47,066 nucleotides of DNA from an uncultured Oscillospiraceae bacterium. GTDB taxonomy: Bacteria; Bacillota; Clostridia; Oscillospirales; Oscillospiraceae. The DNA lies in assembly GCA_944385675.1 (NCBI GenBank), contig CALWYD010000109.1, positions 1 to 47,066 on the forward strand, in the 5' to 3' direction. The position numbers were made by a program, and so were the translations under genes. The notes under the pieces were generated by a model. The model had not been told where the DNA came from. It saw only the letters and a program-made list of their open reading frames with translations, and did not search any database. Below are positions 10,716 through 38,827 of this stretch, piece after piece. Positions within the stretch are counted from its first letter, which is position 1. Every line of letters starts with the position of its first letter.

Positions 10716-12206
10716 ATGATGGACGCCGCTGTGTCCAAGCTGGCCACCTATGCCCTGCGCACGGGGCTGATAGAAGAGAGCGAGTATGTCTGGGCAATCA
10801 ATACCATTCTGGATGTACTGAAACTGGACGGTTACACCGATCCGGGCCAGGAGTGGGGGGAGATTGATCTGGCCGCAGTGCTGGAGGAGCTGCTGGATGA
10901 TGCCCACGCCCGGGGAGTACTGGCAGAAAACTCTGTAGTTTACCGGGACCTGTTTGACACAGAACTTATGGGCCGGCTCACCCCCAGGCCTGCCCAGGTT
11001 ATTGCCCGTTTCCAGGCGCTGTATGCTCAGGAGCCCAAGGCGGCCACCGACTGGTACTATAAGTTCAGCCAGGATACCAATTATATCCGCCGGGACCGCA
11101 TCGCCAAGGATATGCAGTGGAAGGCCCAAACCGAGTACGGGGAACTGGACATCACCATCAACCTGTCCAAACCGGAGAAGGATCCCAAGGCCATTGCCGC
11201 TGCCCGGAACCTGCCTGCCTCCAGCTATCCCCGCTGTCAGTTGTGCGCGGAGAACGAGGGCTACGCCGGGAGGGTGAACCATCCCGCCCGACAGAACCAC
11301 CGCATTATTCCCATCACGATTAACGCTGCCCCCTGGTTCCTCCAATACTCCCCCTATGTTTACTACAATGAGCACTGTATTTGTCTCAACAGTGTCCATA
11401 CACCCATGAAGATAGACCGGGCCTGCTTTGGAAAACTGCTGGACTTCGTAGCCCAGTTCCCCCACTATTTTGTAGGTTCTAATGCCGATCTGCCCATTGT
11501 AGGCGGCTCCATTCTGGCTCACGACCACTTCCAGGGTGGGCGGTACACCTTCGCCATGGAGAAGGCCCCTGTGGAGTACCCCGTTACCTTTCCCGGATTT
11601 GAGGACGTGAAGGCGGGCATTGTCAAGTGGCCTATGTCCGTCGTCCGACTGACCTGCCCGGAGCGGGAGCGGCTGGTAGAATTGGCTGACCGCATCCTGC
11701 TGTCCTGGCGGGGCTACACGGATGAGGCCGCAGTCATCTTTGCCGAAACCGAAGGGGTACCTCACAATACCATCACCCCCATTGCCCGGAGAAGGGGGGA
11801 GGATTTTGAGCTGGATCTGGTGCTGCGCAATAACCTTACTACACCGGAGCATCCTCTGGGGCTCTATCATCCCCACAGTGAACTCCACCATATCAAGAAG
11901 GAGAATATCGGCCTTATTGAGGTCATGGGCCTTGCGGTGCTGCCTGCCCGACTTAAGGAGGAGCTGGCCGCAGTGGCCGATGCCTTGGTAGATGGCTCGG
12001 ACCTGCGGGGCAATGAGTTGACGGAGAAGCACGCCCGGTGGGCGGAGGGCTTCCGAGATAAATACCACATCACGAAGGAAAATGCGCTGGATATTGTCCA
12101 AAAGGAGACGGGCCTGGTGTTTGCCCAGGTGCTGGAGCACGCTGGCGTCTATAAGCGAACCTCCCAGGGACAGGAGGCTTTCCTGCGCTTTTTAAAGCAG
12201 GTATAG
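10716..12206 (+). CDS. galT: UDP-glucose-hexose-1-phosphate uridylyltransferase, class II GalT
   Basis: GalT transfers UMP from UDP-glucose to galactose-1-phosphate. The 496-residue length and sequence match the Firmicutes type of GalT (class II) rather than the roughly 350-residue E. coli type. Recognisable parts are the N-terminal helical region (YALRTGLIEESEYVWAIN), CQLCAENEGYAGR, the HRIIPI stretch and the active-site-type motif GGSILAHDHFQGG. ATG 10716 follows GAGGTGA by 6 bases; the next codon is also ATG. It closes the galK-galE-galT operon; I see no strong terminator before the aromatic operon promoter at 12247. Confidence 0.93.
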   Translation: MMDAAVSKLATYALRTGLIEESEYVWAINTILDVLKLDGYTDPGQEWGEIDLAAVLEELLDDAHARGVLAENSVVYRDLFDTELMGRLTPRPAQVIARFQALYAQEPKAATDWYYKFSQDTNYIRRDRIAKDMQWKAQTEYGELDITINLSKPEKDPKAIAAARNLPASSYPRCQLCAENEGYAGRVNHPARQNHRIIPITINAAPWFLQYSPYVYYNEHCICLNSVHTPMKIDRACFGKLLDFVAQFPHYFVGSNADLPIVGGSILAHDHFQGGRYTFAMEKAPVEYPVTFPGFEDVKAGIVKWPMSVVRLTCPERERLVELADRILLSWRGYTDEAAVIFAETEGVPHNTITPIARRRGEDFELDLVLRNNLTTPEHPLGLYHPHSELHHIKKENIGLIEVMGLAVLPARLKEELAAVADALVDGSDLRGNELTEKHARWAEGFRDKYHITKENALDIVQKETGLVFAQVLEHAGVYKRTSQGQEAFLRFLKQV

Positions 12207-12246
12207 CGATGGGTACCAGGACAGGGAAAAAAGTTTAAAAAAACAG

Positions 12247-12275
12247 TTGACAGCGCCCCAAATGGGTGCTATGAT
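12247..12275 (+). promoter_or_regulatory. Promoter of the aromatic amino acid operon leader
   Basis: A consensus -35 TTGACA (12247-12252), 17-base spacer and TATGAT (12270-12275) form one of the best promoters in the window. Transcription would start near 12282, about 30 bases before the leader peptide. Confidence 0.85.
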
Positions 12276-12311
12276 GCGTCTTGGAATTTGGAAAGGCAGA
12301 GGAGTTTACCC

Positions 12312-12425
12312 ATGAAGAATCTGTTTGCAGCTTTCTTTTATGGCTACTTTTACTTTTTTAGCTTTAGTGCTGACAAGGTAAAAGTGCTTTTTGCTGCAAA
12401 TCAAGGTACGACCTCCTTTGCGTAA
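12312..12425 (+). CDS. Phe/Tyr-rich leader peptide of an attenuator
   Basis: A 37-codon ORF with its own AGAGGAG ribosome site 7 bases upstream of ATG 12312. Residues 5-18 contain ten aromatic residues out of fourteen (seven Phe, three Tyr), and the whole peptide has nine Phe and three Tyr. It lies between a consensus promoter and a strong intrinsic terminator, directly before the DAHP synthase gene of an operon that ends in phenylalanine synthesis. This is the layout of pheL-type ribosome-mediated attenuation: scarcity of charged Phe or Tyr tRNA stalls the ribosome in the run and changes the downstream fold. The peptide itself probably has no other function. No Trp codon is present, which argues against control by tryptophan. 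Confidence 0.85.
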   Translation: MKNLFAAFFYGYFYFFSFSADKVKVLFAANQGTTSFA

Positions 12426-12443
12426 GAAAAAGGGATCGGATTT

Positions 12444-12483
12444 AAGGCCTGCGGTGAAAAACACTTCACCGCAGGCCTTTTTC
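12444..12483 (+). terminator. Attenuator terminator before aroF
   Basis: A perfect 15-bp stem pairs 12444-12458 with 12465-12479 around a 6-base loop, and T12478-T12482 form the T run. It begins 18 bases after the leader peptide stop. A candidate antiterminator (12391-12402 with 12439-12443 and 12451-12457) is interrupted and rich in G-U pairs, so I regard it as weak. Confidence 0.88.
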
Positions 12484-12535
12484 ATTGCCTGTGGGGAGAG
12501 TCCGCCGGCACATACAGGAAAGGAACGAGGAAGCC

Positions 12536-13555
12536 ATGATTATCATTGTCAAACAGGATGCCAAAGAGGAGCGTATACAAGATCTGATTCACTGGATTGA
12601 ATCCCAGAACCTGCGCACCCATGTCTCGGCAGGGGATTATTCCACCATTATCGGTATTATCGGCGACACCAGCAAGCTGGACGATGATCTTATCTCGGGC
12701 CTGGACATTGTGGAGGGAGTCAAGCGGGTGTCCGAGCCCTTTAAAAGTGCCAACCGGAAGTTCCATCCCCAGGACTCCGTTATTGAGGTAGGGGAACAGA
12801 AGCTGAAGGTAGGCCATGGCAACTTTGCCATGATTGCCGGCCCCTGTTCGGTGGAGAGCGAGGAACAGATTATCTCTGTGGCTAAGAGCGTCAAGGCAGC
12901 CGGAGCCACCATGCTTCGGGGGGGAGCATTCAAGCCCCGCACCTCTCCCTATGACTTCCAGGGCCTGAAGGCCGACGGCATTGAGTTGCTGTTGGAGGCC
13001 AAGCGGGAGACCGGGCTGCCCATTGTCACCGAAATTATGAACGCCAACCACCTGCCCCTCTTTGAGGATGTGGACGTCATCCAGGTAGGGGCCCGGAATA
13101 TGCAGAATTTTGAGCTGCTCAAGGAGCTGGGTAAGCTGCAAAAACCCATTCTGATCAAGCGGGGATTGGCCAACACCATCAAGGAACTGCTCATGAGCGC
13201 CGAGTATATTATGGCCGGAGGAAACGAAAACGTCATCCTGTGTGAGCGGGGCATCCGGACGTTTGAGACGGCCACCCGCAATACCTTGGATCTGTCTGCG
13301 GTTACGGTCCTCCACGAGCTGACCCATCTGCCGGTGGTAGTGGATCCCAGCCACTCTACCGGAGTAGCCCGGTATGTAAAGCCCATGGCTATGGCGGCGG
13401 CGGCTTGCGGGGCAGACGGACTAATTATCGAGGTACACAATGATCCGCCCCACGCCCTGTGTGACGGGGCCCAGTCCCTGCGGCCGGAGCAGTTTGAGGA
13501 TGTGGCCCGGGCTGTGCGGGCCATCCGGGCCACCGCGCTGGAGGTAACGCAATGA
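12536..13555 (+). CDS. aroF: 3-deoxy-7-phosphoheptulonate (DAHP) synthase
   Basis: This is the first shikimate-pathway enzyme, condensing phosphoenolpyruvate and erythrose-4-phosphate. Residues 1-70 form a ferredoxin-like N-terminal domain (IIIVKQDAKEERIQDLI) as in the Thermotoga-type DAHP synthase, where it mediates feedback inhibition by Phe or Tyr. The catalytic barrel shows IAGPCSVES (about 100-108), LRGGAFKPRTSPY, the metal-site stretch and VDPSHSTG. ATG 12536 is preceded by GAGGA; upstream codons in frame lie in the terminator region. It is 339 residues long and overlaps aroB by 4 bases. It stands directly behind the Phe/Tyr leader, so both transcription and enzyme activity are probably tuned to aromatic amino acids. 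Confidence 0.93.
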   Translation: MIIIVKQDAKEERIQDLIHWIESQNLRTHVSAGDYSTIIGIIGDTSKLDDDLISGLDIVEGVKRVSEPFKSANRKFHPQDSVIEVGEQKLKVGHGNFAMIAGPCSVESEEQIISVAKSVKAAGATMLRGGAFKPRTSPYDFQGLKADGIELLLEAKRETGLPIVTEIMNANHLPLFEDVDVIQVGARNMQNFELLKELGKLQKPILIKRGLANTIKELLMSAEYIMAGGNENVILCERGIRTFETATRNTLDLSAVTVLHELTHLPVVVDPSHSTGVARYVKPMAMAAAACGADGLIIEVHNDPPHALCDGAQSLRPEQFEDVARAVRAIRATALEVTQ

Positions 13556-14628
13556 GAACCCTGCGCGTAAACACCTCCCGTCCCTACGATATTGAAATTG
13601 ACCGGGGACTGCTGGATCGGGCAGGGGAGAGGTGCCGGGCGGCAGTACCCCGAGTCCAGCGGCTGTTTGTGGTAACAGACAGCCATGTGGGCCCCCTGTA
13701 CGGGGAGCGGCTGGTTCGTTCTCTGGAGGATGCCGGCTTCCAGGTGGGGCTGCACACTGTTCCTGCCGGGGAGGAGAGCAAGTGCTCCCGCTGTTTGGTG
13801 GAGCTGTGGGAGGCCATGATGGCCTTCGGGCTGACCCGAACGGATGGCGTGGCCGCCCTTGGGGGCGGCGTAGTGGGCGACTTGGCGGGATTTGCCGCGG
13901 CCACTGTGCTGCGAGGAGTGGACTATATCCAGATTCCAACTACCCTGCTCTCCCAGGTGGACTCCTCAGTGGGCGGAAAGGTAGCCATTGATCTGGAAGC
14001 AGGGAAAAACCTGGCCGGGGCCTTTTGGCAGCCCAGCGCAGTACTGATTGACCCAGAGTGTTTGAATACCCTGAGTGACCGGATTTTCTCCGATGGAATG
14101 GCCGAGGTCATCAAGTACGGCTGTATTCTGAATAGGGAGTTTTTCCATCTGTTGGATAGGTGCGGCGGCCGCCAGGGAGTCATGGACCACATTGAGGAGG
14201 TCATTTATACCTGCTGCGACCTGAAGCGACAAGTAGTGCTTCAGGATGAGCGGGACACCGGAACCCGGCAGCTGCTGAACTTCGGCCATACCATTGGCCA
14301 TGCCTTTGAGCTGGCTGGCGGCTATCAGCGTTGGACTCATGGTCAGGGTGTGGCCGCTGGAATGAATTGGGCTGGGCAGCTGGGCGTCACACTGGGTGTC
14401 ACACCCGCCTGTGTAGTGGGGGACATTCAGAATATTCTGGCCAAGTACCAGCTTCCGCTGGATATTCCCTGCCCCTGGGAGGTTATGACCCAGGCGGTGG
14501 GGCTGGACAAAAAACGGGCAGGGGATTCCATTACTTTAATTTTATTGACGCAACTGGGATGCGCAGTGCGCCGCACCATGAAGAAAGAGGAGCTGCTTGC
14601 CCTGCTGAAACCTCTGTTTGGAGGATAA
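13552..14628 (+). CDS. aroB: 3-dehydroquinate synthase
   Basis: AroB converts DAHP to 3-dehydroquinate with bound NAD and a divalent metal. Visible signatures are GGGVVGDLAGFAA (NAD-binding), TTLLSQVDSSVGGKVAID, KNLAGAFWQP, the metal ligand region GMAEVIKYG and the HTIGHAFE helix. The product has 358 residues, the normal length. Its ATG overlaps the aroF stop by 4 bases, so the two are translationally coupled. Confidence 0.95.
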   Translation: MRTLRVNTSRPYDIEIDRGLLDRAGERCRAAVPRVQRLFVVTDSHVGPLYGERLVRSLEDAGFQVGLHTVPAGEESKCSRCLVELWEAMMAFGLTRTDGVAALGGGVVGDLAGFAAATVLRGVDYIQIPTTLLSQVDSSVGGKVAIDLEAGKNLAGAFWQPSAVLIDPECLNTLSDRIFSDGMAEVIKYGCILNREFFHLLDRCGGRQGVMDHIEEVIYTCCDLKRQVVLQDERDTGTRQLLNFGHTIGHAFELAGGYQRWTHGQGVAAGMNWAGQLGVTLGVTPACVVGDIQNILAKYQLPLDIPCPWEVMTQAVGLDKKRAGDSITLILLTQLGCAVRRTMKKEELLALLKPLFGG

Positions 14629-14633
14629 CCGGT

Positions 14634-15869
14634 ATGGATCTGACCATTGTCCCCGCTAAACTGCGAGGAAAACTTACTCCGCCCCCCAGTAAGAGCCAGG
14701 CACACCGTCTCATTCTGTGTGCCGCCCTGGCAGAAGGAGAGAGCCTGCTGAAAAACGTGGCCCTCTCTCAAGATGTAGAGGCGACCCTCTGCTGTGCACA
14801 GATCCTGGGGGCCAGGTGGCGCCGGGAGGAAGGCGGCCGGCTGCGGATATGGGGGACAGGGGGACAGCTATGGAGCGGGAAGGACCTGCCCCGCTTTGAT
14901 TGCGGGGAGTCGGGCTCCACCCTGCGTTTTCTGATTCCCGTTGCCCTGGCTCTGGCCGGGGGCGGGATATTTACCGGCCGTGGACGCCTGATGGAGCGGC
15001 CTCAGGAGCCCTATATCCGCCTGTTCCAGGAGAAAGGAATTTCTTGGGAGCAAGAGGGAGGCACTTTGACGGTGCGAGGACGGCTGGAGGCGGGGGAGTA
15101 CCGTCTGCCCGGCAACGTGTCCAGCCAGTTTTTCACTGGCCTTCTCTACGCCCTGCCTCTGGTGGAGGGCACGTCCCGCATTGTGCCCACCACCCCTGTG
15201 GAGAGTTGGGACTACATCGCCATGACCGTGGACGCCTTGGCAGGGGCGGGGGTCACCGTGACAGTGTCTCACAGAGCTGCAACGTGTTTTTACATGACAG
15301 GGAAGATGGATTACCAGGCAGTGGATTGCACAGTAGAGGCCGACTGGTCCCAGGCGGCGTTTTGGTACGCTGCAAATTTCCTGGGGGCAGAGGTGGCTAT
15401 TCAGGGTCTTCATCCTGATTCTGCCCAGGGGGATAAGGCAATTGCCCCCTTTTACTGGAAACTGGCCCGGCCGGGGGATGTGGAGCTGGATGTGTCCCAA
15501 TACCCTGATCTGGTACCCCCACTGGCCGCCATGGCGGCGGTGCGGCGGGGGACGGCCCGGCTCACCCACGCGGCCCGGCTGCGGATGAAGGAGAGCGACC
15601 GGCTCTCCTCTGTGACGGCCGCCCTCAACACCCTGGGGGCCCAGGTGGAGGAGCATCCGGACAGCCTGACTATTCGGGGCCTGGACAGCCTGGTCGGCGG
15701 CGGGAGGGTGGATTGCCGCAATGACCACCGGATTGCCATGATGGCTGCAGTGGCGGCGTCGGCCTGTGAAACGCCCTTCACCTTGTTGGGAGCGGAGTGT
15801 GTGGAGAAGTCCTATCCGGAGTTTTGGAAGCACTATGAGATGCTGGGAGGGAAGATTGATGTCCTCTGA
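14634..15869 (+). CDS. aroA: 3-phosphoshikimate 1-carboxyvinyltransferase (EPSP synthase)
   Basis: The enzyme joins shikimate-3-phosphate and phosphoenolpyruvate. It has the two-domain EPSP synthase layout in 411 residues: PPSKSQAHRLILCAALAEG at the N-terminus, the GESGSTLRFL loop, GNVSSQFFTGLLYALP, and the second-domain motifs RMKESDR and DHRIAMMAAVA. I start at ATG 14634, 9 bases after GGAGG and 5 bases after aroB; the open frame continues upstream inside aroB without a ribosome site. The usual QNAGT-type segment reads as ESGST here, as in many Clostridia. The end overlaps aroC by 11 bases. Confidence 0.94.
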   Translation: MDLTIVPAKLRGKLTPPPSKSQAHRLILCAALAEGESLLKNVALSQDVEATLCCAQILGARWRREEGGRLRIWGTGGQLWSGKDLPRFDCGESGSTLRFLIPVALALAGGGIFTGRGRLMERPQEPYIRLFQEKGISWEQEGGTLTVRGRLEAGEYRLPGNVSSQFFTGLLYALPLVEGTSRIVPTTPVESWDYIAMTVDALAGAGVTVTVSHRAATCFYMTGKMDYQAVDCTVEADWSQAAFWYAANFLGAEVAIQGLHPDSAQGDKAIAPFYWKLARPGDVELDVSQYPDLVPPLAAMAAVRRGTARLTHAARLRMKESDRLSSVTAALNTLGAQVEEHPDSLTIRGLDSLVGGGRVDCRNDHRIAMMAAVAASACETPFTLLGAECVEKSYPEFWKHYEMLGGKIDVL

Positions 15870-16977
15870 ACTGGGAACCCATGTACGGGTGTCCATTTTC
15901 GGCCAGTCCCACGCACCGGCCATCGGTGTGTGTGTAGATGGTCTGCCCGCCGGGGAGCGGGTGGATCTGGAAGAGTTGGCCGCCTTCTTAAGCCGTCGGG
16001 CACCGGGACGGGATGATATTTCCACTCCACGGCGGGAGGAGGACCGCCCACGGATCTTGTGCGGGCTGGTGGACGGAGTGACCTGCGGTGCGCCTTTGGC
16101 GGCTGTGATTGAGAACACGAATACGCGCTCCGGGGACTACGACGGCCTGAAAGATGTGCCCCGGCCTGGCCATGCGGATTACACCGCCCAGGTGCGTTAT
16201 GGGGGCTGGCAGGATACAGCGGGCGGCGGTCATTTTTCCGGACGGCTCACCGCGCCCTTGTGTATCGCAGGGGGGATTGCCCTGCAGATTCTGCGTCGCC
16301 GGGGTATCTTGGTGGGGGCGCACATTTGGAGCATTGCCGGGGTGGAGGATCGCCCCTTTTCTCCTCTTGGAGAGCCGAAGAAAATACTGGAGAACCTGGC
16401 TGCGGCCCCTCTGCCCGTGCTGGATTCCCAGGCGGGAGAGAAGATGCGCCGGCGGATTCTGGAGGCCCGGAGTGAGGGCGATTCAGTAGGTGGAGTAGTG
16501 GAGTGCATGGTCACAGGCCTGCCCGGGGGACTGGGCGGTCCCCTATTCGGAGGGATGGAAAGCCGGCTGGCTGCCGCGCTGTTTGGTATCCCTGCGGTGA
16601 AAGGGGTAGACTTTGGCGCCGGCTTCCGGGCTGCGGAAATGCGGGGCTCGGAACACAATGACCCATTTGGCATAGAGAACGGACGGGTGGTCACCACCAC
16701 CAACCAAGCCGGAGGGATTCTTGGGGGTATTACCACCGGGATGCCCCTGATTTTCCGGGCAGCTTTTAAACCAACCCCCTCCATTGCCAAGGAACAGGGG
16801 AGTGTCTCCCTGTCCCGCAGGGAGGAGGAGCGCTTGGTGGTGCGGGGCCGTCACGACCCCTGTGTGGTTCCCCGGGCCGTGCCGGTGGTGGAGGCCGCTG
16901 CAGCTCTGGTCGTGTTGGATGCCCTGATGGACAGTCCGGCCCGCCTACCGGATGGAGCGGATTGGTATAAAAATTGA
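15859..16977 (+). CDS. aroC: Chorismate synthase
   Basis: AroC turns EPSP into chorismate using reduced FMN. The 372-residue protein shows the FMN/substrate motifs at the N-terminus (HVRVSIFGQSHAPAIGV with the conserved GxSH), R48-type residues in RRAPGRD, RPGHADYTAQVRYGG, GSEHNDPF and the C-terminal GRHDPCVVPRAVPVVEA. Start at ATG 15859 is supported by GGGAGGGAAG just upstream and by the domain start; this ATG lies inside aroA. pheA follows after 29 bases. Confidence 0.95.
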   Translation: MSSELGTHVRVSIFGQSHAPAIGVCVDGLPAGERVDLEELAAFLSRRAPGRDDISTPRREEDRPRILCGLVDGVTCGAPLAAVIENTNTRSGDYDGLKDVPRPGHADYTAQVRYGGWQDTAGGGHFSGRLTAPLCIAGGIALQILRRRGILVGAHIWSIAGVEDRPFSPLGEPKKILENLAAAPLPVLDSQAGEKMRRRILEARSEGDSVGGVVECMVTGLPGGLGGPLFGGMESRLAAALFGIPAVKGVDFGAGFRAAEMRGSEHNDPFGIENGRVVTTTNQAGGILGGITTGMPLIFRAAFKPTPSIAKEQGSVSLSRREEERLVVRGRHDPCVVPRAVPVVEAAAALVVLDALMDSPARLPDGADWYKN

Positions 16978-17006
16978 AAGAAAACAAAATCAGGAGGCTG
17001 AGGAAT

Positions 17007-18158
17007 ATGAGTGAACAATTGGAAGAGCTGCGCGGTCGCATTGATGACATTGATCGCCAAATGGTGGAGCTGTTTAAGGCGCGTATGGAGGTCGCTGGGG
17101 AGATTGCGGACTATAAGCAGGAGCATGGAATGCCTGTTTATGCTGCCGCCCGGGAGCGTGCCCTGTTGGGGAAGGTGGGAGATCAGGCGGGGGAGGAGTT
17201 GGCCGACTACGCTCAGTCTGTTTACCGCGCTATCCTCTCGGTCAGTCGCTCCTATCAAAATGGAAGGATAGGGAAAAACTCCCAGGTATATGAGGGGATT
17301 CGCAAAGCCCTTGCGGCAACCCCATCTCTGTTTCCTCAGCGGCCTACGGTGGCCTGTCAGGGCATTGAGGGGGCCTACTCTCAAATTGCCTGTGACCGGC
17401 TCTTCAAGGCGCCCACCATTATGTATTTCCAGACCTTTGACCATGTGTTCAAAGCGGTGGAGAGCGGCATGTGTCAGTATGGCATCCTGCCCATTGAGAA
17501 CAGTACTGCGGGCTCCGTGAAGGCGGTGTACGATCTGATGTTGCGCCACAACTTCTCCATTGTCCGCTCTGCCCGGTTGAAGGTGAGCCACAATCTGTTG
17601 GCCAAGCACGGGACAGACCTGTCCCAGATTCGAGAGGTTTTCTCCCATGAACAGGCTATCAACCAGTGTTCCGGTTACCTGGCGGGGTTGAAGGACGTGA
17701 AAGTGACCGTGGTGGAGAATACCGCTATCGCCTCCCGTATGGTGGCCGAGTCTGACCGCACGGATGTAGCCGCGCTTTCCTCCCGGTTCTGTGCAGAGCA
17801 TTATGGCCTGAACATCCTTCAGGAGAATGTCCAGGACCAGGATAACAATTACACCCGCTTTATCTGCATCTCCAAAAAGTTGGAGATTTACCCCGGGGCG
17901 GATCGTACCTCTCTGATGATTACCCTACCCCATAAGCCGGGCACCCTTTACAATGTGCTGGCCAAATTCTATGCCCTGAATATTAACCTGCAGAAATTGG
18001 AGAGCCGTCCCCTGCCCGGGCGGGAGTTTGAGTTCATGTTTTACTTCGACCTGGAGGGCTCCGTCTACGCCCCGGAGGTGGAGAAGCTGTTCCGGGATCT
18101 GGAGTCTGAGAGCGAGCAGATACGCTATCTGGGCACATACAATGAGGTGATCTGCTGA
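17007..18158 (+). CDS. pheA: Bifunctional chorismate mutase / prephenate dehydratase (P-protein)
   Basis: This is the committed enzyme of phenylalanine synthesis. Residues 1-90 are an AroQ-type chorismate mutase (LRGRIDDIDRQMVELFKARM). About 112-290 is prephenate dehydratase (VACQGIEGAYSQIA, the catalytic TRF motif T283-R284-F285). The C-terminal 295-383 is an ACT domain with the Phe-binding ESRP motif at 332-335 (ESRPLPG), which normally gives feedback inhibition by phenylalanine. ATG 17007 follows an AGGAGG site by 9 bases. The presence of pheA but no prephenate dehydrogenase gene shows that the operon leads to Phe, in agreement with the Phe-rich leader peptide. The stop overlaps the next start by one base. 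Confidence 0.94.
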   Translation: MSEQLEELRGRIDDIDRQMVELFKARMEVAGEIADYKQEHGMPVYAAARERALLGKVGDQAGEELADYAQSVYRAILSVSRSYQNGRIGKNSQVYEGIRKALAATPSLFPQRPTVACQGIEGAYSQIACDRLFKAPTIMYFQTFDHVFKAVESGMCQYGILPIENSTAGSVKAVYDLMLRHNFSIVRSARLKVSHNLLAKHGTDLSQIREVFSHEQAINQCSGYLAGLKDVKVTVVENTAIASRMVAESDRTDVAALSSRFCAEHYGLNILQENVQDQDNNYTRFICISKKLEIYPGADRTSLMITLPHKPGTLYNVLAKFYALNINLQKLESRPLPGREFEFMFYFDLEGSVYAPEVEKLFRDLESESEQIRYLGTYNEVIC

Positions 18159-19390
18159 TGCAGGATCCTTTGGAGTACGGGCTTATCGGGGAGAAGCTGG
18201 GGCACAGCTTTTCCCCGGACATTCACCGCAAGCTGGCCGGCTATGATTACCGTTTGGTTGAACTGAAGCCGGAGGAACTGGGCCCCTTTTTGGAGCGGGG
18301 GGCCTTTTTCGGATTGAACGTAACCATCCCCTACAAGAAGGCTGTGATTCCCTATTGCAGCAATTTGACCGATCAGGCCAGGCGTATTGGCAGCGTGAAC
18401 ACCATTCTGCGCAGGAAGGACGGCACCCTTCTGGGACACAACACGGATTATGACGGCTTTTGCTATCTTCTGCGTGAGGCGGGGGCCCAGGTGGCGGGGA
18501 GAAAGGCTTTAATCCTGGGGACCGGGGGCGTCTCCCTCACAGTGCGTACGGCGTTGGAGGATCTGGGAGCAGGTGAGATTGTCTTTATTTCCCGCTCCGG
18601 GCCGGATAATTACGAGAACCTGGATCGACATGCTGACGCTCAGATCCTGGTAAACGCCACCCCTGTGGGGATGTATCCTAAAACAGATGCCTGTCCGGTA
18701 GAGCTGTCACGTTTTCCCCAACTGGAAGGGGCCTTTGACCTTATTTATAATCCCTCCCGAACCCGGTTTTTCCAACAGGCGGAAAAACTTGGGGTGGCGC
18801 GGGTCAATGGACTTGGGATGCTGGTGGCCCAGGCAAAGGCGGCTGCAGAACGTTTCCTGGATATTTCCCTGCCTGATGAGCGGGTAAAGGAAATTGCCCG
18901 GGAGATAGAGGGACGCACCCGCAACCTGCTGCTTATTGGTATGCCTGGCTGCGGCAAGACCACTGTAGGCCAGGCTCTGGCCCAGCGTCTGGGCCGGCCT
19001 CTGGTGGATACAGATGACCTGGTGGAGAAGACTGCGGGCTGCTCTATCCCTGAGATATTCTCCAGGGATGGGGAGGAGGTGTTCCGCCGCCTGGAGCATG
19101 AGGCCATCTGCCAGGTGTGCCGGGAATCCGGGCAGGTCATTGCTGTGGGCGGAGGTGCGGTGACACGGGAAGAAAATCTAGGCCCTATGCGGGAAAATTC
19201 AACGGTTATTTTTCTGCGCCGCCCTGTGGACCAGCTGCCGGTGGAGGGGCGCCCTATCTCCCAAGCCAACAATTTAGAGGAGTTGTACCGCCGTAGATTG
19301 CCGTTGTACCAGAAGACGGCTGACCTGTCAGTGGAGAACTGTCAGATGGAGGAGACTGCAGAAGAAATTATAAGGAGGCTGGAACTGTGA
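18158..19390 (+). CDS. Fused shikimate dehydrogenase / shikimate kinase
   Basis: One 410-residue reading frame carries two consecutive-pathway enzymes. Residues 1-245 match AroE: shikimate-binding GEKLGHSFSP, NVTIPYKK with the catalytic lysine, GHNTDYDGF with the catalytic aspartate, and a nucleotide loop GTGGVSLTV (121-129). Residues about 250-410 match AroK: Walker A GMPGCGKTT (261-269), DTDDLVE, the GGGAVTREEN shikimate-binding stretch and the Arg-containing lid RRPVDQLPVEGRP. The linker is short (about 246-256). No stop or ribosome site separates the halves, so it is a true fusion. The dehydrogenase loop departs from the usual GAGGAS. The gene overlaps pheA by 1 base and aroQ by 4. Confidence 0.93.
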   Translation: MQDPLEYGLIGEKLGHSFSPDIHRKLAGYDYRLVELKPEELGPFLERGAFFGLNVTIPYKKAVIPYCSNLTDQARRIGSVNTILRRKDGTLLGHNTDYDGFCYLLREAGAQVAGRKALILGTGGVSLTVRTALEDLGAGEIVFISRSGPDNYENLDRHADAQILVNATPVGMYPKTDACPVELSRFPQLEGAFDLIYNPSRTRFFQQAEKLGVARVNGLGMLVAQAKAAAERFLDISLPDERVKEIAREIEGRTRNLLLIGMPGCGKTTVGQALAQRLGRPLVDTDDLVEKTAGCSIPEIFSRDGEEVFRRLEHEAICQVCRESGQVIAVGGGAVTREENLGPMRENSTVIFLRRPVDQLPVEGRPISQANNLEELYRRRLPLYQKTADLSVENCQMEETAEEIIRRLEL

Positions 19391-19836
19391 AGCTTCTTGT
19401 CATCAATGGCCCAAATTTGAATCTGCTGGGTATTCGGGAGCCGGATATCTACGGCCGTCAGGATTACCAGGCCCTCACAGCATTGGTTAAGGAGACCTGC
19501 GCCAGATTTGGGATAGGAGTGGATCTGTTTCAATCCAACCATGAGGGAGCTATTGTGGATCGCATCCAGGCTGCCCTGGGCCAGGAGGACGCCATTGTCA
19601 TCAATCCTGCCGCCTATACCCACACCAGCATAGCTATTTTAGATGCCCTGAAGGCGGTGGGTCTACCGGCAGTGGAGGTACATCTGTCCGATGTGAAGAG
19701 CAGGGAACCGTTTCGGCAGATATCCTATGCCGGGATGGCCTGTGAAAAAACCATCATAGGGAAAGGCTTTCAGGGCTATGTAGAGGCCATTGAGTACTTG
19801 GCTACACAATATGGAGATGGACAGTCACAGCCGTGA
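19387..19836 (+). CDS. aroQ: 3-dehydroquinate dehydratase, type II
   Basis: AroQ dehydrates 3-dehydroquinate to 3-dehydroshikimate. The 149-residue length and motifs are those of the type II dodecameric enzyme: VINGPNLNLLGIREPDIYG with the catalytic Tyr loop region, FQSNHEGAIVDRI, VINPAAYTHTSIAILDAL and EVHLSDVKSREPFRQISY. It starts with GTG overlapping the previous stop by 4 bases. It is the last gene of the aromatic operon and is followed by a clear terminator. Confidence 0.95.
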   Translation: MKLLVINGPNLNLLGIREPDIYGRQDYQALTALVKETCARFGIGVDLFQSNHEGAIVDRIQAALGQEDAIVINPAAYTHTSIAILDALKAVGLPAVEVHLSDVKSREPFRQISYAGMACEKTIIGKGFQGYVEAIEYLATQYGDGQSQP

Positions 19837-19851
19837 AAGACGGAAGTCCAT

Positions 19852-19883
19852 GCCGCGGGGATAGAACACCCCGCGGCTTTTTT
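19852..19883 (+). terminator. Terminator of the aromatic operon
   Basis: GCCGCGGGG (19852-19860) pairs perfectly with CCCCGCGGC (19869-19877) and is followed by six T. Confidence 0.88.
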
Positions 19884-19930
19884 ATGGGATAGAAAGACAG
19901 AAAGAGGGTCTTTCCCTTTTGTAAAAATTG

Positions 19931-19939
19931 TGCTAAACT
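19931..19939 (+). promoter_or_regulatory. Possible promoter of the MATE gene (extended -10)
   Basis: TGC followed by TAAACT (19934-19939) forms an extended -10 behind the operon terminator. No good -35 is visible. Confidence 0.4.
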
Positions 19940-20016
19940 CAAACCCGTAATAAATGGCGTATCCATGTCCCTTGGGCATGAGGGCGGAAGGTAGAAAGAA
20001 GAGAGGGAGAACAGAG

Positions 20017-21396
20017 GTGCCCCAGGTTCAAAATGACTTTTCTAAAGGTAGTGTGTCCCACAATATTATGGCGCTGGCGCTGCCCATGACGGCAGCCCAG
20101 CTGGTCAACGTACTATACAGTGTTGTGGATCGCATCTATCTGGGCCGCCTGCCGGGTAGCAGCCACCTGGCACTCACCGGGCTGGGCGTCACCATCCCTA
20201 TCGTATCTATTATCATGGGCCTGGCCAATCTGTGCGGTACCGGAGGAGCCCCGCTGTGCTCTATTTGCAGGGGACATGGAGAAAATGAGGAAGCGGAAAA
20301 TGTAATGGGAAATTCCTTCACATTACTGATGATTCTTGGAACCGCAGCAACAATATTTTTTCTGGCACTGCAAGAACCTATCTTGTATCTCTTTGGGGCC
20401 AGTGCAGATACCTTTCCCTATGCTAACCAGTACATGACCATCTATTTGTGCGGAACATTGTTTGTAATGATTAGTTTGGGGATGAATCCCTTCATCAATT
20501 CCCAGGGATTTGGGCGCATGGGAATGATGACGGTGGTCATTGGGGCTGCGCTGAATATTATTCTGGACCCCATCTTTATTTTCCTGTTGGATATGGGTGT
20601 GCAGGGGGCAGCCCTGGCCACTGTGATATCTCAGGGCGTTTCTGCGATATGGGTTCTGCAATTTTTAACTGGCCCCAGGGCTATTCTGCGTTTACAGTTT
20701 AGGTGCCTGCGTCTACAGCGCAAAAGGGTGTCCCGTATTATCAGCCTGGGGCTGTCCGGTTTTTTTATGAACATGACCAACAGCCTGGTCCAGGTGGTGT
20801 GCAATGCCACTCTTCAGGCCTATGGCGGGGATCTCTATGTGGGAATCATGACCATTATCAACTCCTTGCGGGAGGTCTTTACCATGCCGGTCAACGGCCT
20901 GACCAATGGCTCTCAGCCGGTTACCGGCTACAACTATGGGGCGGGGAAATACAGCCGGGTGCGCAAGTCCATCCGTTTTAGCGTGGGTGTCACCGTAGCT
21001 TACTCCGCTGCTTTCTGGGCAGTGGCTATGTTGGCCCCCGGCCTGTTGATTCGGGTATTTAATGACGGAGCTGAGGTAATTGAGAAGGGGATTCCCGCCT
21101 TGCGCATCTACTTTGGGCTGTTCATCCCCATGTCGCTGCAGATGGCGGGGCAGGGCGTGTTTGTGGGACTTGGACGGTCTAAGCAGGCGGTGTTCTTCTC
21201 CCTTTTGAGAAAGGCGATTATCAACGCCCCCCTTACCGTTATTTTGCCCATCTGGATGGGGACCACCGGAGTGTTTGTGGCCGAGGCGATTTCACAGCTG
21301 GTGGGTGGACTGGCCTGCTTTTTGACCATGTATTTCACGGTTTATCGCCCTTTGGTTCGGATAGAGGATGATGCTCCTCTGCCTGAGCATATATAG
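20017..21396 (+). CDS. MATE-family multidrug/Na+ antiporter
   Basis: The 459-residue membrane protein has about twelve hydrophobic segments in two similar halves, as in MatE transporters. Typical parts are the N-terminal ALPMTAAQLVNVLYSVVDRIYLG, the repeat-end region GMNPFINSQGFGRMGM, and in the second half GLTNGSQPVTGYNYGA. I chose GTG 20017 because a GAGGGAGA site lies 7 bases before it and the family homology begins close behind; an ATG at 19978 would add a basic tail without a better ribosome site. The substrate cannot be deduced. It seems to be transcribed alone after the aromatic operon terminator. Confidence 0.85.
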   Translation: MPQVQNDFSKGSVSHNIMALALPMTAAQLVNVLYSVVDRIYLGRLPGSSHLALTGLGVTIPIVSIIMGLANLCGTGGAPLCSICRGHGENEEAENVMGNSFTLLMILGTAATIFFLALQEPILYLFGASADTFPYANQYMTIYLCGTLFVMISLGMNPFINSQGFGRMGMMTVVIGAALNIILDPIFIFLLDMGVQGAALATVISQGVSAIWVLQFLTGPRAILRLQFRCLRLQRKRVSRIISLGLSGFFMNMTNSLVQVVCNATLQAYGGDLYVGIMTIINSLREVFTMPVNGLTNGSQPVTGYNYGAGKYSRVRKSIRFSVGVTVAYSAAFWAVAMLAPGLLIRVFNDGAEVIEKGIPALRIYFGLFIPMSLQMAGQGVFVGLGRSKQAVFFSLLRKAIINAPLTVILPIWMGTTGVFVAEAISQLVGGLACFLTMYFTVYRPLVRIEDDAPLPEHI

Positions 21397-36795: not shown

Positions 36796-38487
36796 TCAGC
36801 TGTTATGGCGCTTGGCGCGATTGATGGCGGCCAAAATGGCGCGCAGGGGGGCCAGATTAATATTGTGAGACAGCCCCACACCCCAGTACTTCTTGCCGTC
36901 CCGCTGGTCCTGGAGCAGGATGTAGGCCACACCCTGGGAATCAGAGCCGTCTGTAATGGCGTGGGAGGCATAGTCCAAGAAGGAGAAGCGGGCCATCTTT
37001 TCATCTTTAATGGCATTGAAGAAGGCATCAATGGGGCCGTTGCCCTCTCCAGAGACTTTGAAAATAGTGTCTGTATGCTGCAGAGTACCCCAGAAGGTGA
37101 CGTGAGAGTGACCCTCCCCATCCACGCTCTCCTGGAAGGCGTGTTTGAGCAGCTTGTAGGGCCCCTTGACTTCGATATATTCCTGGTGGAACAGCTCATT
37201 AATACGCTGGGGAGTAATTTCTTTGCCTACGGCGTCAGACTCTTTCTGGATGATGGCACCAAATTCAGGCTGCATGGCCTTTGGCAGATCAAAGCCAAAG
37301 TTATGCTCCATGATGTAGGCGGCACCACCCTTGCCGGACTGGGAGTTGATGCGGATGATAGGTTCGTACTCCCGTCCCACATCAGCGGGATCGATGGGCA
37401 GATAGGGAATCTCCCAGTACTCCGACTTGGATTCCTTCATATACTGGGTGCCCTTGTTGATGGCATCCTGGTGACTGCCTGAGAAGGCGGTAAATACCAA
37501 CTTGCCTGCGTAGGGCTGGCGGTCACCGACAGGCATTTTCGTACACCGCTCGTACATCTCCTTAATTTGATTAATATTGGAGAAATTCAGCTGGGGATCC
37601 ACTCCCTGGGTCCACATATTCATAGCCAGGGTAATCATGTCCACGTTGCCGGTGCGCTCACCGTTTCCGAATAAGGTGGCCTCTACGCGCTCCGCTCCGG
37701 CCAGCAGGCCCATTTCCGCGGTAGCCACACCACATCCCCGGTCATTGTGGGGGTGAAGGGAGATGATAGAACAGTCCCGGGAGGGGAGTTTCCGAATAAA
37801 GTACTCCAGCATGTCAGCAAACTGGTTGGGCATACAATTTTCCACCGTAGTAGGCAAGTTTAGAATAACCTTATTGTCCGGGGTGGCGTGCAGATGCTCC
37901 AGCACCGCCTGGCAGATGTCCACAGCATAGTCCATCTCTGTGCCCATAAAAGATTCGGGGGAGTATTCAAAACGCAGGTTCATTCCCTGTGCCAGCATAG
38001 GCTGAGACATCTCGTAGATGAGGTCGGCGGCATCAGTGGCAATCTTAGTAATGCCATCCATGTCCATATGGAACACCACCTTACGCTGAAGGGTGGAGGT
38101 GGAGTTGTAGAAATGGAGGATTACATTTTTGGCCCCCTGGATGGCCTCAAATGTTTTCTTAATCAGATGTTCCCGGGCCTGTACCAGAACCTGAATGGTC
38201 ACATCATCGGGAATATGTCCCCCTTCAATCAGCTCCCGGCAGATCTCATACTCTGTCTCACTGGCCGACGGGAATCCAATCTCAATCTCCTTGACGCCAA
38301 TATCAACCAGAGCATGAAAATATTCCAATTTCTCCTGCAGGTTCATGGGATCCACCAGAGCCTGGTTGCCGTCCCGCAGATCTACCGAACACCACACAGG
38401 GGCCTTTTTGATGACCTTATCGGGCCAGGTACGGTTTTGAATGGGCTGGGGTTTGAAAGGGATGTACTTTTCGAAGCCGGGTTTCAT
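36796..38487 (-). CDS. leuA: 2-isopropylmalate synthase
   Basis: LeuA makes 2-isopropylmalate, the first committed step of leucine synthesis. The 563-residue protein is the longer LeuA type. It has the HMGL-like barrel with SVDLRDGNQAL near the N-terminus, the metal-binding SLHPHNDRGCGVA, the GNGERTGNVDMITLAMN motif, and a C-terminal LeuA allosteric domain that normally gives leucine feedback. I start at ATG 38487 (AAGGAGG upstream); upstream in-frame codons overlap the leader region. It is preceded by a T-box RNA and its own promoter, so transcription depends on uncharged tRNA. No leuB, leuC or leuD is adjacent. Confidence 0.95.
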   Translation of the reverse strand: MKPGFEKYIPFKPQPIQNRTWPDKVIKKAPVWCSVDLRDGNQALVDPMNLQEKLEYFHALVDIGVKEIEIGFPSASETEYEICRELIEGGHIPDDVTIQVLVQAREHLIKKTFEAIQGAKNVILHFYNSTSTLQRKVVFHMDMDGITKIATDAADLIYEMSQPMLAQGMNLRFEYSPESFMGTEMDYAVDICQAVLEHLHATPDNKVILNLPTTVENCMPNQFADMLEYFIRKLPSRDCSIISLHPHNDRGCGVATAEMGLLAGAERVEATLFGNGERTGNVDMITLAMNMWTQGVDPQLNFSNINQIKEMYERCTKMPVGDRQPYAGKLVFTAFSGSHQDAINKGTQYMKESKSEYWEIPYLPIDPADVGREYEPIIRINSQSGKGGAAYIMEHNFGFDLPKAMQPEFGAIIQKESDAVGKEITPQRINELFHQEYIEVKGPYKLLKHAFQESVDGEGHSHVTFWGTLQHTDTIFKVSGEGNGPIDAFFNAIKDEKMARFSFLDYASHAITDGSDSQGVAYILLQDQRDGKKYWGVGLSHNINLAPLRAILAAINRAKRHNS

Positions 38488-38551
38488 AGCAGTGTCCTCC
38501 TTAAAATGCGGCTCCCGCAGATAAAAGCGGGGCAAGTCGTCCGCCAGGGGA

Positions 38552-38827
38552 TAAAAAAACGCCCCTGACTTTCAAAAGTCAGGGGCGTGAAGTAGTCTCA
38601 CGCTGTACCACCCTGGTTCAGCCGCCGGTTACCCAAGCGGCCCTCAAAAGCCTCCAACAAGGCTGTGGCCGGTAACGGGGCCAGACGTTCCATCCTACTA
38701 AGGGCAGGTTCGGAGGGACCGCTCGGGGACCAGTTATACACAAAAGTGTCACACACCGGTTCGCACCAACCACCGGTTCTCTGAGAGGGCAGCTCCTGTC
38801 TTTATTCCCTTCATCGCGTTTGAAATT
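38552..38827 (-). ncRNA. T-box leader RNA of leuA
   Basis: The minus-strand transcript contains a stem I with the GA-motif and terminal loop pattern (CAGAGAACCGG, GGTTGGTGCGAACC, about 38757-38790), and the T-box sequence AGGGTGGTACAGCG at 38601-38614, which differs by one base (C to A) from the usual AGGGTGGTACCGCG. A 13-bp terminator stem (38560-38572 with 38575-38587) with seven T follows. Uncharged tRNA, presumably tRNA-Leu, would favour the antiterminator. I did not fix the specifier codon; CTG at 38731-38733 is a candidate. Confidence 0.88.

Follow-up and report, generated by a model that had tools for sequence, protein, structure and literature searches.

The leader region between a galT-like gene and aroF, in a 47,066-nucleotide stretch of DNA from an uncultured Oscillospiraceae bacterium (GCA_944385675.1, contig CALWYD010000109.1, positions 1 to 47,066 of the forward strand; hereafter the window, whose coordinates are used throughout), very probably encodes a ribosome-mediated transcription attenuator that would sense charged tRNA-Phe and tRNA-Tyr. 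A ribosome short of phenylalanine (Phe) or tyrosine (Tyr) probably flips an RNA switch, turning on the genes behind it. Comparison with homologous loci makes leader-peptide attenuation of this shikimate-phenylalanine operon the best supported reading; it also suggests that such attenuators are common in the sampled Clostridia, and that their antiterminator captures the terminator loop. The leader comprises the following elements.

12247–12275, + strand: promoter, with −35 TTGACA at 12247–12252, a 17-nt spacer and a TG-extended −10 TATGAT at 12270–12275 (11 of 12 consensus positions)
12300–12304, + strand: Shine-Dalgarno sequence AGGAG, 7 nt upstream of the ATG at 12312, from sequence
12312–12425, + strand: Phe/Tyr-rich leader open reading frame (ORF) of 37 codons and 37 amino acids, peptide MKNLFAAFFYGYFYFFSFSADKVKVLFAANQGTTSFA
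12324–12365, + strand: control codons FAAFFYGYFYFFSF, 10 of 14 aromatic (7 Phe, 3 Tyr, 0 tryptophan (Trp))
12324–12331, + strand: segment 1, TTTGCAGC, paired with 12393–12400 in the predicted minimum-free-energy (MFE) fold if no ribosome is present
12382–12398, + strand: segment 2, upstream antiterminator strand, AAGTGCTTTTTGCTGCA, from folding and cross-locus pairing
12444–12479, + strand: intrinsic terminator of 15 bp (12444–12458 with 12465–12479) with a 6-nt loop and a T run at 12478–12482
12450–12466, + strand: segment 3, downstream antiterminator strand, overlapping the terminator 5′ arm, loop and start of the 3′ arm

The ribosome site, the 37-codon ORF with its aromatic run and the 15-bp terminator are all present on the sequence, as a first-pass annotation had described them. 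The promoter that it called perfect is strong, but near-perfect; transcription would start near 12283. A scan of 1.5 kb returned two promoter-like sites, against 0.9 expected from shuffles, and two terminator-like sites against a shuffle mean of 1.9, the second of them only 6 bp long. None of 2000 dinucleotide shuffles of 12207–12535 reached 10 aromatic codons in 14, the best reaching 8. The terminator has a predicted energy of −28.5 kcal/mol, and the segment 12280–12500 folds at −82.5, compared with −59.2 for its shuffles (standard deviation 4.7; z −4.96; 0 of 200 as good). As in an attenuator, a putative short ORF with its ribosome site lies between promoter and structural genes, the frame carries a run of end-product codons, and an intrinsic terminator precedes the first gene. 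A 1:2 (pause or protector) hairpin is also predicted, both by folding and by cross-locus pairing.

Predicted antiterminator and switching

Segments 2 and 3 can pair at 16 of 17 positions, with a single C-A mismatch. Segment 3 consists of the upper 9 bases of the terminator 5′ arm, the 6-base loop and the first 2 bases of the 3′ arm, and the terminator and antiterminator pairings would therefore be mutually exclusive. The antiterminator duplex has a predicted energy of −21.0 kcal/mol, which none of 25 shuffles equalled.

To represent a stalled ribosome, only the RNA that it would leave free was folded, with RNA out of the polymerase to 12467 and an assumed footprint spanning 18 nt upstream and 14 nt downstream of where the A-site codon starts. 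With stalls at codons 8, 10, 12, 14, 16 and 18, the antiterminator was part of the MFE structure each time, with 16 bp (15 bp at codon 8). With the ribosome placed at the stop codon, the terminator is the predicted fold; with no ribosome, 12324–12331 pairs with 12393–12400 and the terminator again forms. The first-pass annotation had found the antiterminator unclear and its best candidate (12391–12402 with 12439–12457) interrupted. The pairing of 12382–12398 with 12450–12466 takes its place at every stall tried, the older candidate not having been scored separately.

From the anatomy of the leader, the exclusive pairings and their conservation we infer translation, stalling, kinetic trapping and a response to starvation, in the following scheme. 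RNA polymerase would set off from near 12283, and the leader peptide would be translated behind it. When both Phe and Tyr are ample, the ribosome would run over segment 2 towards the stop codon, leaving segment 3 for segment 4, so that the terminator at 12444–12479 would halt transcription before aroF. When charged tRNA-Phe or tRNA-Tyr is short, the ribosome would stall within 12324–12365, freeing segment 2 to pair with segment 3; this pairing would tie up the loop together with the top of the 5′ arm and the beginning of the 3′ arm while the remainder of the 3′ arm is still inside the polymerase, and the operon would be read. In the case where no ribosome is present, segment 1 would pair with segment 2 and the terminator would form.

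Conservation across aroF loci

Two sets of loci were compared. The first comprised 110 loci, 30 from the family (in which 321 of 400 genomes matched aroF) and 80 from a genome collection (the best 80 of 585); the second comprised 80 further family loci, hand-picked from the lower ranks of the family aroF matches. Five records were drawn twice among these 190 loci, giving 185 distinct ones. The nearest named relative by aroF, among the matches listed, was a Lawsonibacter metagenome-assembled genome (MAG) at 87% identity (L031). A leader was counted where an upstream ORF had at least 6 aromatic codons in 14.

By this threshold, 88 of the 110 first-set loci have an aromatic-run ORF, and 92 of 110 have a terminator in the 260 nt upstream; the second set gave 71 of 80 and 73 of 80, respectively, with both features in 69 of 80. 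Over the distinct loci the run is present in 154 of 185, and reaches at least 8 of 14 in 102, so that a leader, far from being an isolated oddity, is what most of the loci examined have upstream of aroF. The threshold of 6 in 14 is reached on the true strand of 87 of 109 loci, on the reverse strand of 8 of 109 and in 38 of 545 shuffles; at least 8 were found in 67 of 109, 2 of 109 and 0 of 545. The 88 first-set leaders carry a mean of 8.5 aromatics in frame, compared with 2.6 and 2.5 in the other two frames.

The 2226 codons of 159 leaders include 696 for Phe, 576 for Tyr and 12 for Trp. Both Phe and Tyr codons occur in 158 of these 159 leaders, or 153 of 154 without repeats, the exception (L280) being Phe-only. 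Among seven congeneric or near loci, codons swap between Phe and Tyr (TTC/TAC, TAT/TTT) and between synonyms, yet mostly stay aromatic, which speaks for selection on the codons. Similar aroF leaders were also seen in two MAGs titled Treponema/Treponemataceae (L040, L053), reflecting either horizontal transfer or mis-binned contigs.

Among the leaders compared, the length and ends of the peptide vary widely, and composition is kept while residue order is not. This matters for a second reading, in which a TnaC- or SecM-like nascent peptide would jam the ribosome in response to free Phe, free Tyr or another signal. The ORF does stand before an attenuator, and endings such as KVKVLFAA or KVKVIFAA recur; but these recurrent endings look like the RNA of segment 2 read in one frame, as L017, L061 and L066 read similar nucleotides in another (SDLCCK), and in some loci segment 2 lies beyond the stop codon. 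As the peptides keep composition rather than sequence, we consider peptide arrest very unlikely. Less likely still is a functional small hydrophobic membrane protein whose gene stands by chance before the operon terminator, since, although a Phe/Tyr-rich peptide is hydrophobic and the leader peptide peTrpL reportedly has a function in trans, length and ends vary here, no residue order is conserved and the RNA pairing with the terminator is. A trans role of the leader peptide besides attenuation may nevertheless exist.

Ribosome-mediated attenuation also requires that the RNA pairings be kept, and here different bases preserve the same pairing: AGCGAU/AUCGCU in L014, AGUGAU/AUCACU in L007 and AGGCUAAUUUGUG/CACAGGUUAGACCU in L009. 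The antiterminator duplex averages −18.2 kcal/mol over 92 loci, compared with −12.1 for shuffled upstream strands and −13.4 with the terminators of other loci (−23.0 versus −19.0 in a looser, earlier scoring of the same comparison), and 48 of the 92 loci beat all 25 of their shuffles. For a permutation test, the 154 loci with run and terminator were dereplicated to 96. Their own pairs average −17.7, whereas 20,000 permutations of partners average −12.9 (standard deviation 0.28), none being as good (z −17); after removal of row and column means, the residual is negative in 92 of 96 loci. Since terminator loops align poorly, conservation was judged by own versus permuted partners and not by column-wise covariation, and on this measure an antiterminator exclusive with the terminator is kept by matching changes.

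The 1:2 pairing behaves similarly, with means over 83 loci of −16.1 for own partners, −11.7 for others and −11.0 for shuffles, although not every locus follows. Across the same number of loci, the median distance from the last aromatic codon to segment 2 is 15 nt, which fits the ribosome footprint. The end of segment 2 lies a median of 38 nt upstream of the terminator. The leader stop codon ends a median of 20 nt after the start of segment 2 (range −121 to +52), the window leader lying at the long end.

Related leaders before other genes

A covariance model, R1, was built from 30 aroF leaders of one terminator subtype and is insensitive to other subtypes. In the genome of the window it finds only the aroF site, other places scoring E 0.298 or worse. 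At E 0.01 or better R1 matches 55 of 391 genomes of the class, a figure that is not a prevalence. We inspected 49 of the 65 hit places outside the genome of the window: 20 have a fitting leader and gene, 16 of them before aroF and four before pheA (two), tyrS and a PaaK-like gene, and the other 29, weaker and without a fitting leader, were taken as chance. Among 398 genomes of the phylum, five match at E 0.001: that of the window, G1072, G1152, G940 and G516. G1072, G1152 and G940 lie outside the class and have aroF leaders, their genes read by eye, and G516 has no leader. In the family of G1152, 13 of 20 genomes match R1 at E 0.05.

At these sites the control codons appear to tend to follow the gene. 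In G658 the leader before pheA (L169) is Phe-only, while that before aroF (L148) is Tyr-rich. In G752 a Tyr-Tyr-Tyr leader with a matching attenuator stands before tyrS, a tyrosyl-tRNA synthetase gene by Pfam (L153/L362); prephenate dehydrogenase was not found in this genome. Phe-rich leaders precede an AMP-binding enzyme in G506 (L159/L360) and G1178 (L309/L361), which has AMP-binding domains by Pfam and which we read as of the phenylacetate-CoA ligase (PaaK-like) kind. In G506 the gene behind it encodes an ACT-domain-pair protein (Pfam), and in G1178 the ORF behind it looks similar by eye; the leaders before the PaaK-like gene perhaps serve Phe salvage from phenylacetate.

In the family of G1152, R1 also picks, weakly (E 1.5e-4 and 0.008), leaders rich in isoleucine, leucine and valine (Ile/Leu/Val) before leuA in G1152 and G1072; the Phe-rich leader of G1178 was met there too. 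An Ile/Leu/Val leader, a terminator and a loop-capturing antiterminator are found at leuA loci in L227 (1501–1597), in L319 (1501–1603) and upstream in L330, L342 and L346; L330 and L342 apparently have two terminators with antiterminators in a row. Among leuA loci, 5 of 30 have an Ile/Leu/Val-rich ORF with a terminator, a count made without a chance control, and a T-box reaches gathering score in 7 of the 20 that were scanned.

Each loop antiterminator at these other genes was scored against 100 shuffles. The number as good was 0 for pheA in G706, 2 for pheA in G658, 0 for tyrS, 7 (weak) for the PaaK-like gene in G506 and 1 for that in G1178. For leuA it was 1 in G1152, 0 in G1072 and 0 in G686; in G024 and G233, where two leuA terminators each were scored separately, it was 1 and 0, and 5 and 0.

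These leaders point, tentatively and with some doubt on our part, to a modular attenuator spread through Clostridia. Its segment 2 would capture the loop and upper arm of the terminator, its codons would be exchangeable (Phe with Tyr at aroF; Phe at pheA and the PaaK-like gene; Tyr at tyrS; Ile/Leu/Val at leuA), and it would take the place of the kind of T-box found at neighbouring genes or in relatives. Duplication together with codon replacement, as opposed to a separate origin at each gene, may explain the spread of such a switch.

Objections, alternatives and genome context

Several observations weigh against attenuation as read here. Homologous loci below 6 aromatics in 14, a finding that the first-pass annotation had named as refuting the reading, do occur, though as a minority (22 of 110 and 9 of 80); for one of the 22 the upstream stretch is just 57 nt long, and a shorter run (5 of 14) is visible in several of the rest. 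Conversely, some counted leaders may be chance, as 7% of shuffles reach 6 of 14, and the pheA leader of G706 (L137) has Tyr as well as Phe. At 44 of 92 loci at least one of 25 shuffles pairs as well as the antiterminator, which at L020, L038 and L063 is beaten by most of its own shuffles, and for the upstream strand of the window 2 of 95 other terminators are equally good partners. Once all of the RNA has been made, the terminator is the favoured fold whether or not a ribosome is stalled, and the switch would therefore have to be kinetic, the antiterminator forming first, as in the usual account of such attenuators. Finally, the leader stop codon lies 24 nt past segment 2, and a ribosome paused there covers segment 2 poorly, so that the block of segment 2 must come while the ribosome passes.

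A further alternative is that the terminator answers to a tRNA-sensing T-box or to a metabolite riboswitch, with the ORF incidental to it. T-boxes are the usual device for amino acid genes in Firmicutes, and the first-pass remark to this effect is fair for the genome of the window, which has 16 T-box matches, 3 of them over the Rfam cut-off. A T-box binds tRNA directly and, like the proposed leader, senses tRNA charging at a terminator, but the T-box family RF00230 (gathering cut-off 93) has no match in 12200–12560. No Rfam family reaches its cut-off in the window, and a permissive search of 12200–12560 gave 14 weak matches, no T-box among them, the best being PyrR at 25.7 bits (cut-off 54, E 0.15). 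What is conserved is the aromatic reading frame and the 2:3 and 3:4 pairing. At 20 loci with no or a doubtful leader (including L092, L242 and L278, which just reach 6 of 14), no T-box stands before aroF at gathering score, the sole one (L030) being on the other strand. With no match at cut-off, and none before aroF at those 20 loci, we reject T-box or riboswitch control of aroF as highly improbable.

The window itself holds a T-box match at 38578–38823 (− strand), of 92.1 bits and thus just below the cut-off of 93, directly upstream of leuA (ORF 36796–38535, − strand, with a LeuA_dimer domain). One genome thus seems to use both T-box and leader-peptide control.

Attenuation by a leader peptide is itself a known kind of switch. 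The enterobacterial pheA Phe leader (Rfam RF01859) likewise joins a short Phe-run ORF to alternative antiterminator and terminator structures ahead of an aromatic gene, but the window scores only 18.1 bits against its gathering cut-off of 55 (E 1.4). The leader of the window, unlike RF01859, has Phe and Tyr together, stands before an operon headed by DAHP synthase and forms an antiterminator that passes through the terminator loop; E. coli pheL has Phe codons and is not known to have Tyr codons, and classical antiterminators are generally confined to the 5′ arm. In Staphylococcus aureus, branched-chain amino acid synthesis reportedly has a Leu-rich attenuator peptide, again a Firmicute leader peptide, but one for leucine and branched-chain genes. 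Lopatovskaya et al. 2010 is said to be a survey of attenuation in bacteria. An earlier prediction may be contained there; among titles and opening abstract lines of the open-licence literature, no description of the Clostridia aroF leader was found.

The closest published system found, as far as the parts of its source consulted go, is the uORFC-13-1 motif of Acholeplasma aroF, in which a terminator closely follows an upstream ORF containing one or more Phe codons; it is described as a likely attenuator and known from 24 sequences of Acholeplasma and unknown environmental organisms (PMC8632094). Compared by description only, and in those parts, it is given neither a Tyr run nor an antiterminator through the loop (PMC8632094). 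His leader peptides, proposed before hisS and hisZ in bacilli to stand in for T-boxes, likewise place leader-peptide attenuation in Firmicutes, as the portion of the report consulted describes them, but differ in amino acid, gene and class (Bacilli) (PMC2965389). New, as far as searches show, would be how widely the leader occurs in Clostridia, its combination of Phe with Tyr codons, the loop antiterminator and the use of a similar design, with different codons, at other genes. If this holds, ribosome-mediated attenuation would join the devices that commonly control the synthesis of aromatic amino acids in Clostridia, a group in which T-boxes are expected. It predicts, gene by gene, the amino acid to which each operon should respond, and offers a natural series on replacement between T-box and leader peptide: the aroF leader and leuA T-box match of the window, and the Ile/Leu/Val leuA leaders of some relatives.

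The choice of codons can be set beside the pathways of the genomes. Of 34 leader-bearing genomes, 4 have anthranilate synthase I (PF04715), 3 of these being among the 25 of best quality; it was not found in the other 30 (22 of the 25), nor in the genome of the window, which is 87% complete. Most leader-bearing genomes thus look unable to make Trp by the usual route. Prephenate dehydratase is present in 32 of 34 and in 28 of them lies within about 7 kb of aroF or the leader; for prephenate dehydrogenase the figures are 33 of 34 and, within about 2 kb, 27 (both hand counts from coordinates). A pathway ending in Phe and Tyr, but not Trp, would explain codons for these two; because the four trpE-bearing genomes also lack Trp codons, this is only a hint. 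The idea that Trp codons mark Trp-making strains was not supported: the trpE genomes G098, G209, G233 and G658 have leaders without Trp (L011, L009, L012 and L148), and G128, without trpE, has a Trp codon. Nor was a dependence of the Tyr codons on tyrA lying in the operon, since G000, G039, G237 and G342 have tyrA elsewhere yet keep them. No aromatic leader with terminator was seen before the separate tyrA of the genome of the window (G000:C120; L218) or of three congeners. As a separate observation, a T-box over the cut-off lies upstream of an anthranilate synthase I gene in G098 (L209, 1085–1334), whose aroF has a Phe/Tyr leader.

The genes behind the leader, aroF-aroB-aroA-aroC-pheA-aroEK-aroQ at first pass, were confirmed by Pfam. 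No + strand promoter match was found in 13400–20100, and weaker terminator-like matches within the operon genes are at shuffle level (7, with 5.6 expected). The upstream neighbour and the operon are as follows.

10716–12206: galT-like gene, upstream neighbour of the leader region (Pfam)
12536–13555, + strand: aroF, DAHP synthase (Pfam PF00793 and PF18152)
13552–14628, + strand: aroB, 3-dehydroquinate synthase (Pfam)
14634–15869, + strand: aroA, EPSP synthase (Pfam); ATG at 14634 chosen, frame open from 14331
15859–16977, + strand: aroC, chorismate synthase (Pfam); ATG at 15859 chosen, frame open from 15766
16974–18158, + strand: pheA, chorismate mutase-prephenate dehydratase-ACT (CM-PDT-ACT; Pfam)
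18158–19390, + strand: aroEK fusion, shikimate dehydrogenase (N-domain)-shikimate kinase (Pfam)
19387–19836, + strand: aroQ, type II dehydroquinase (Pfam)
19852–19877, + strand: operon-end terminator after aroQ, 9 bp, all GC

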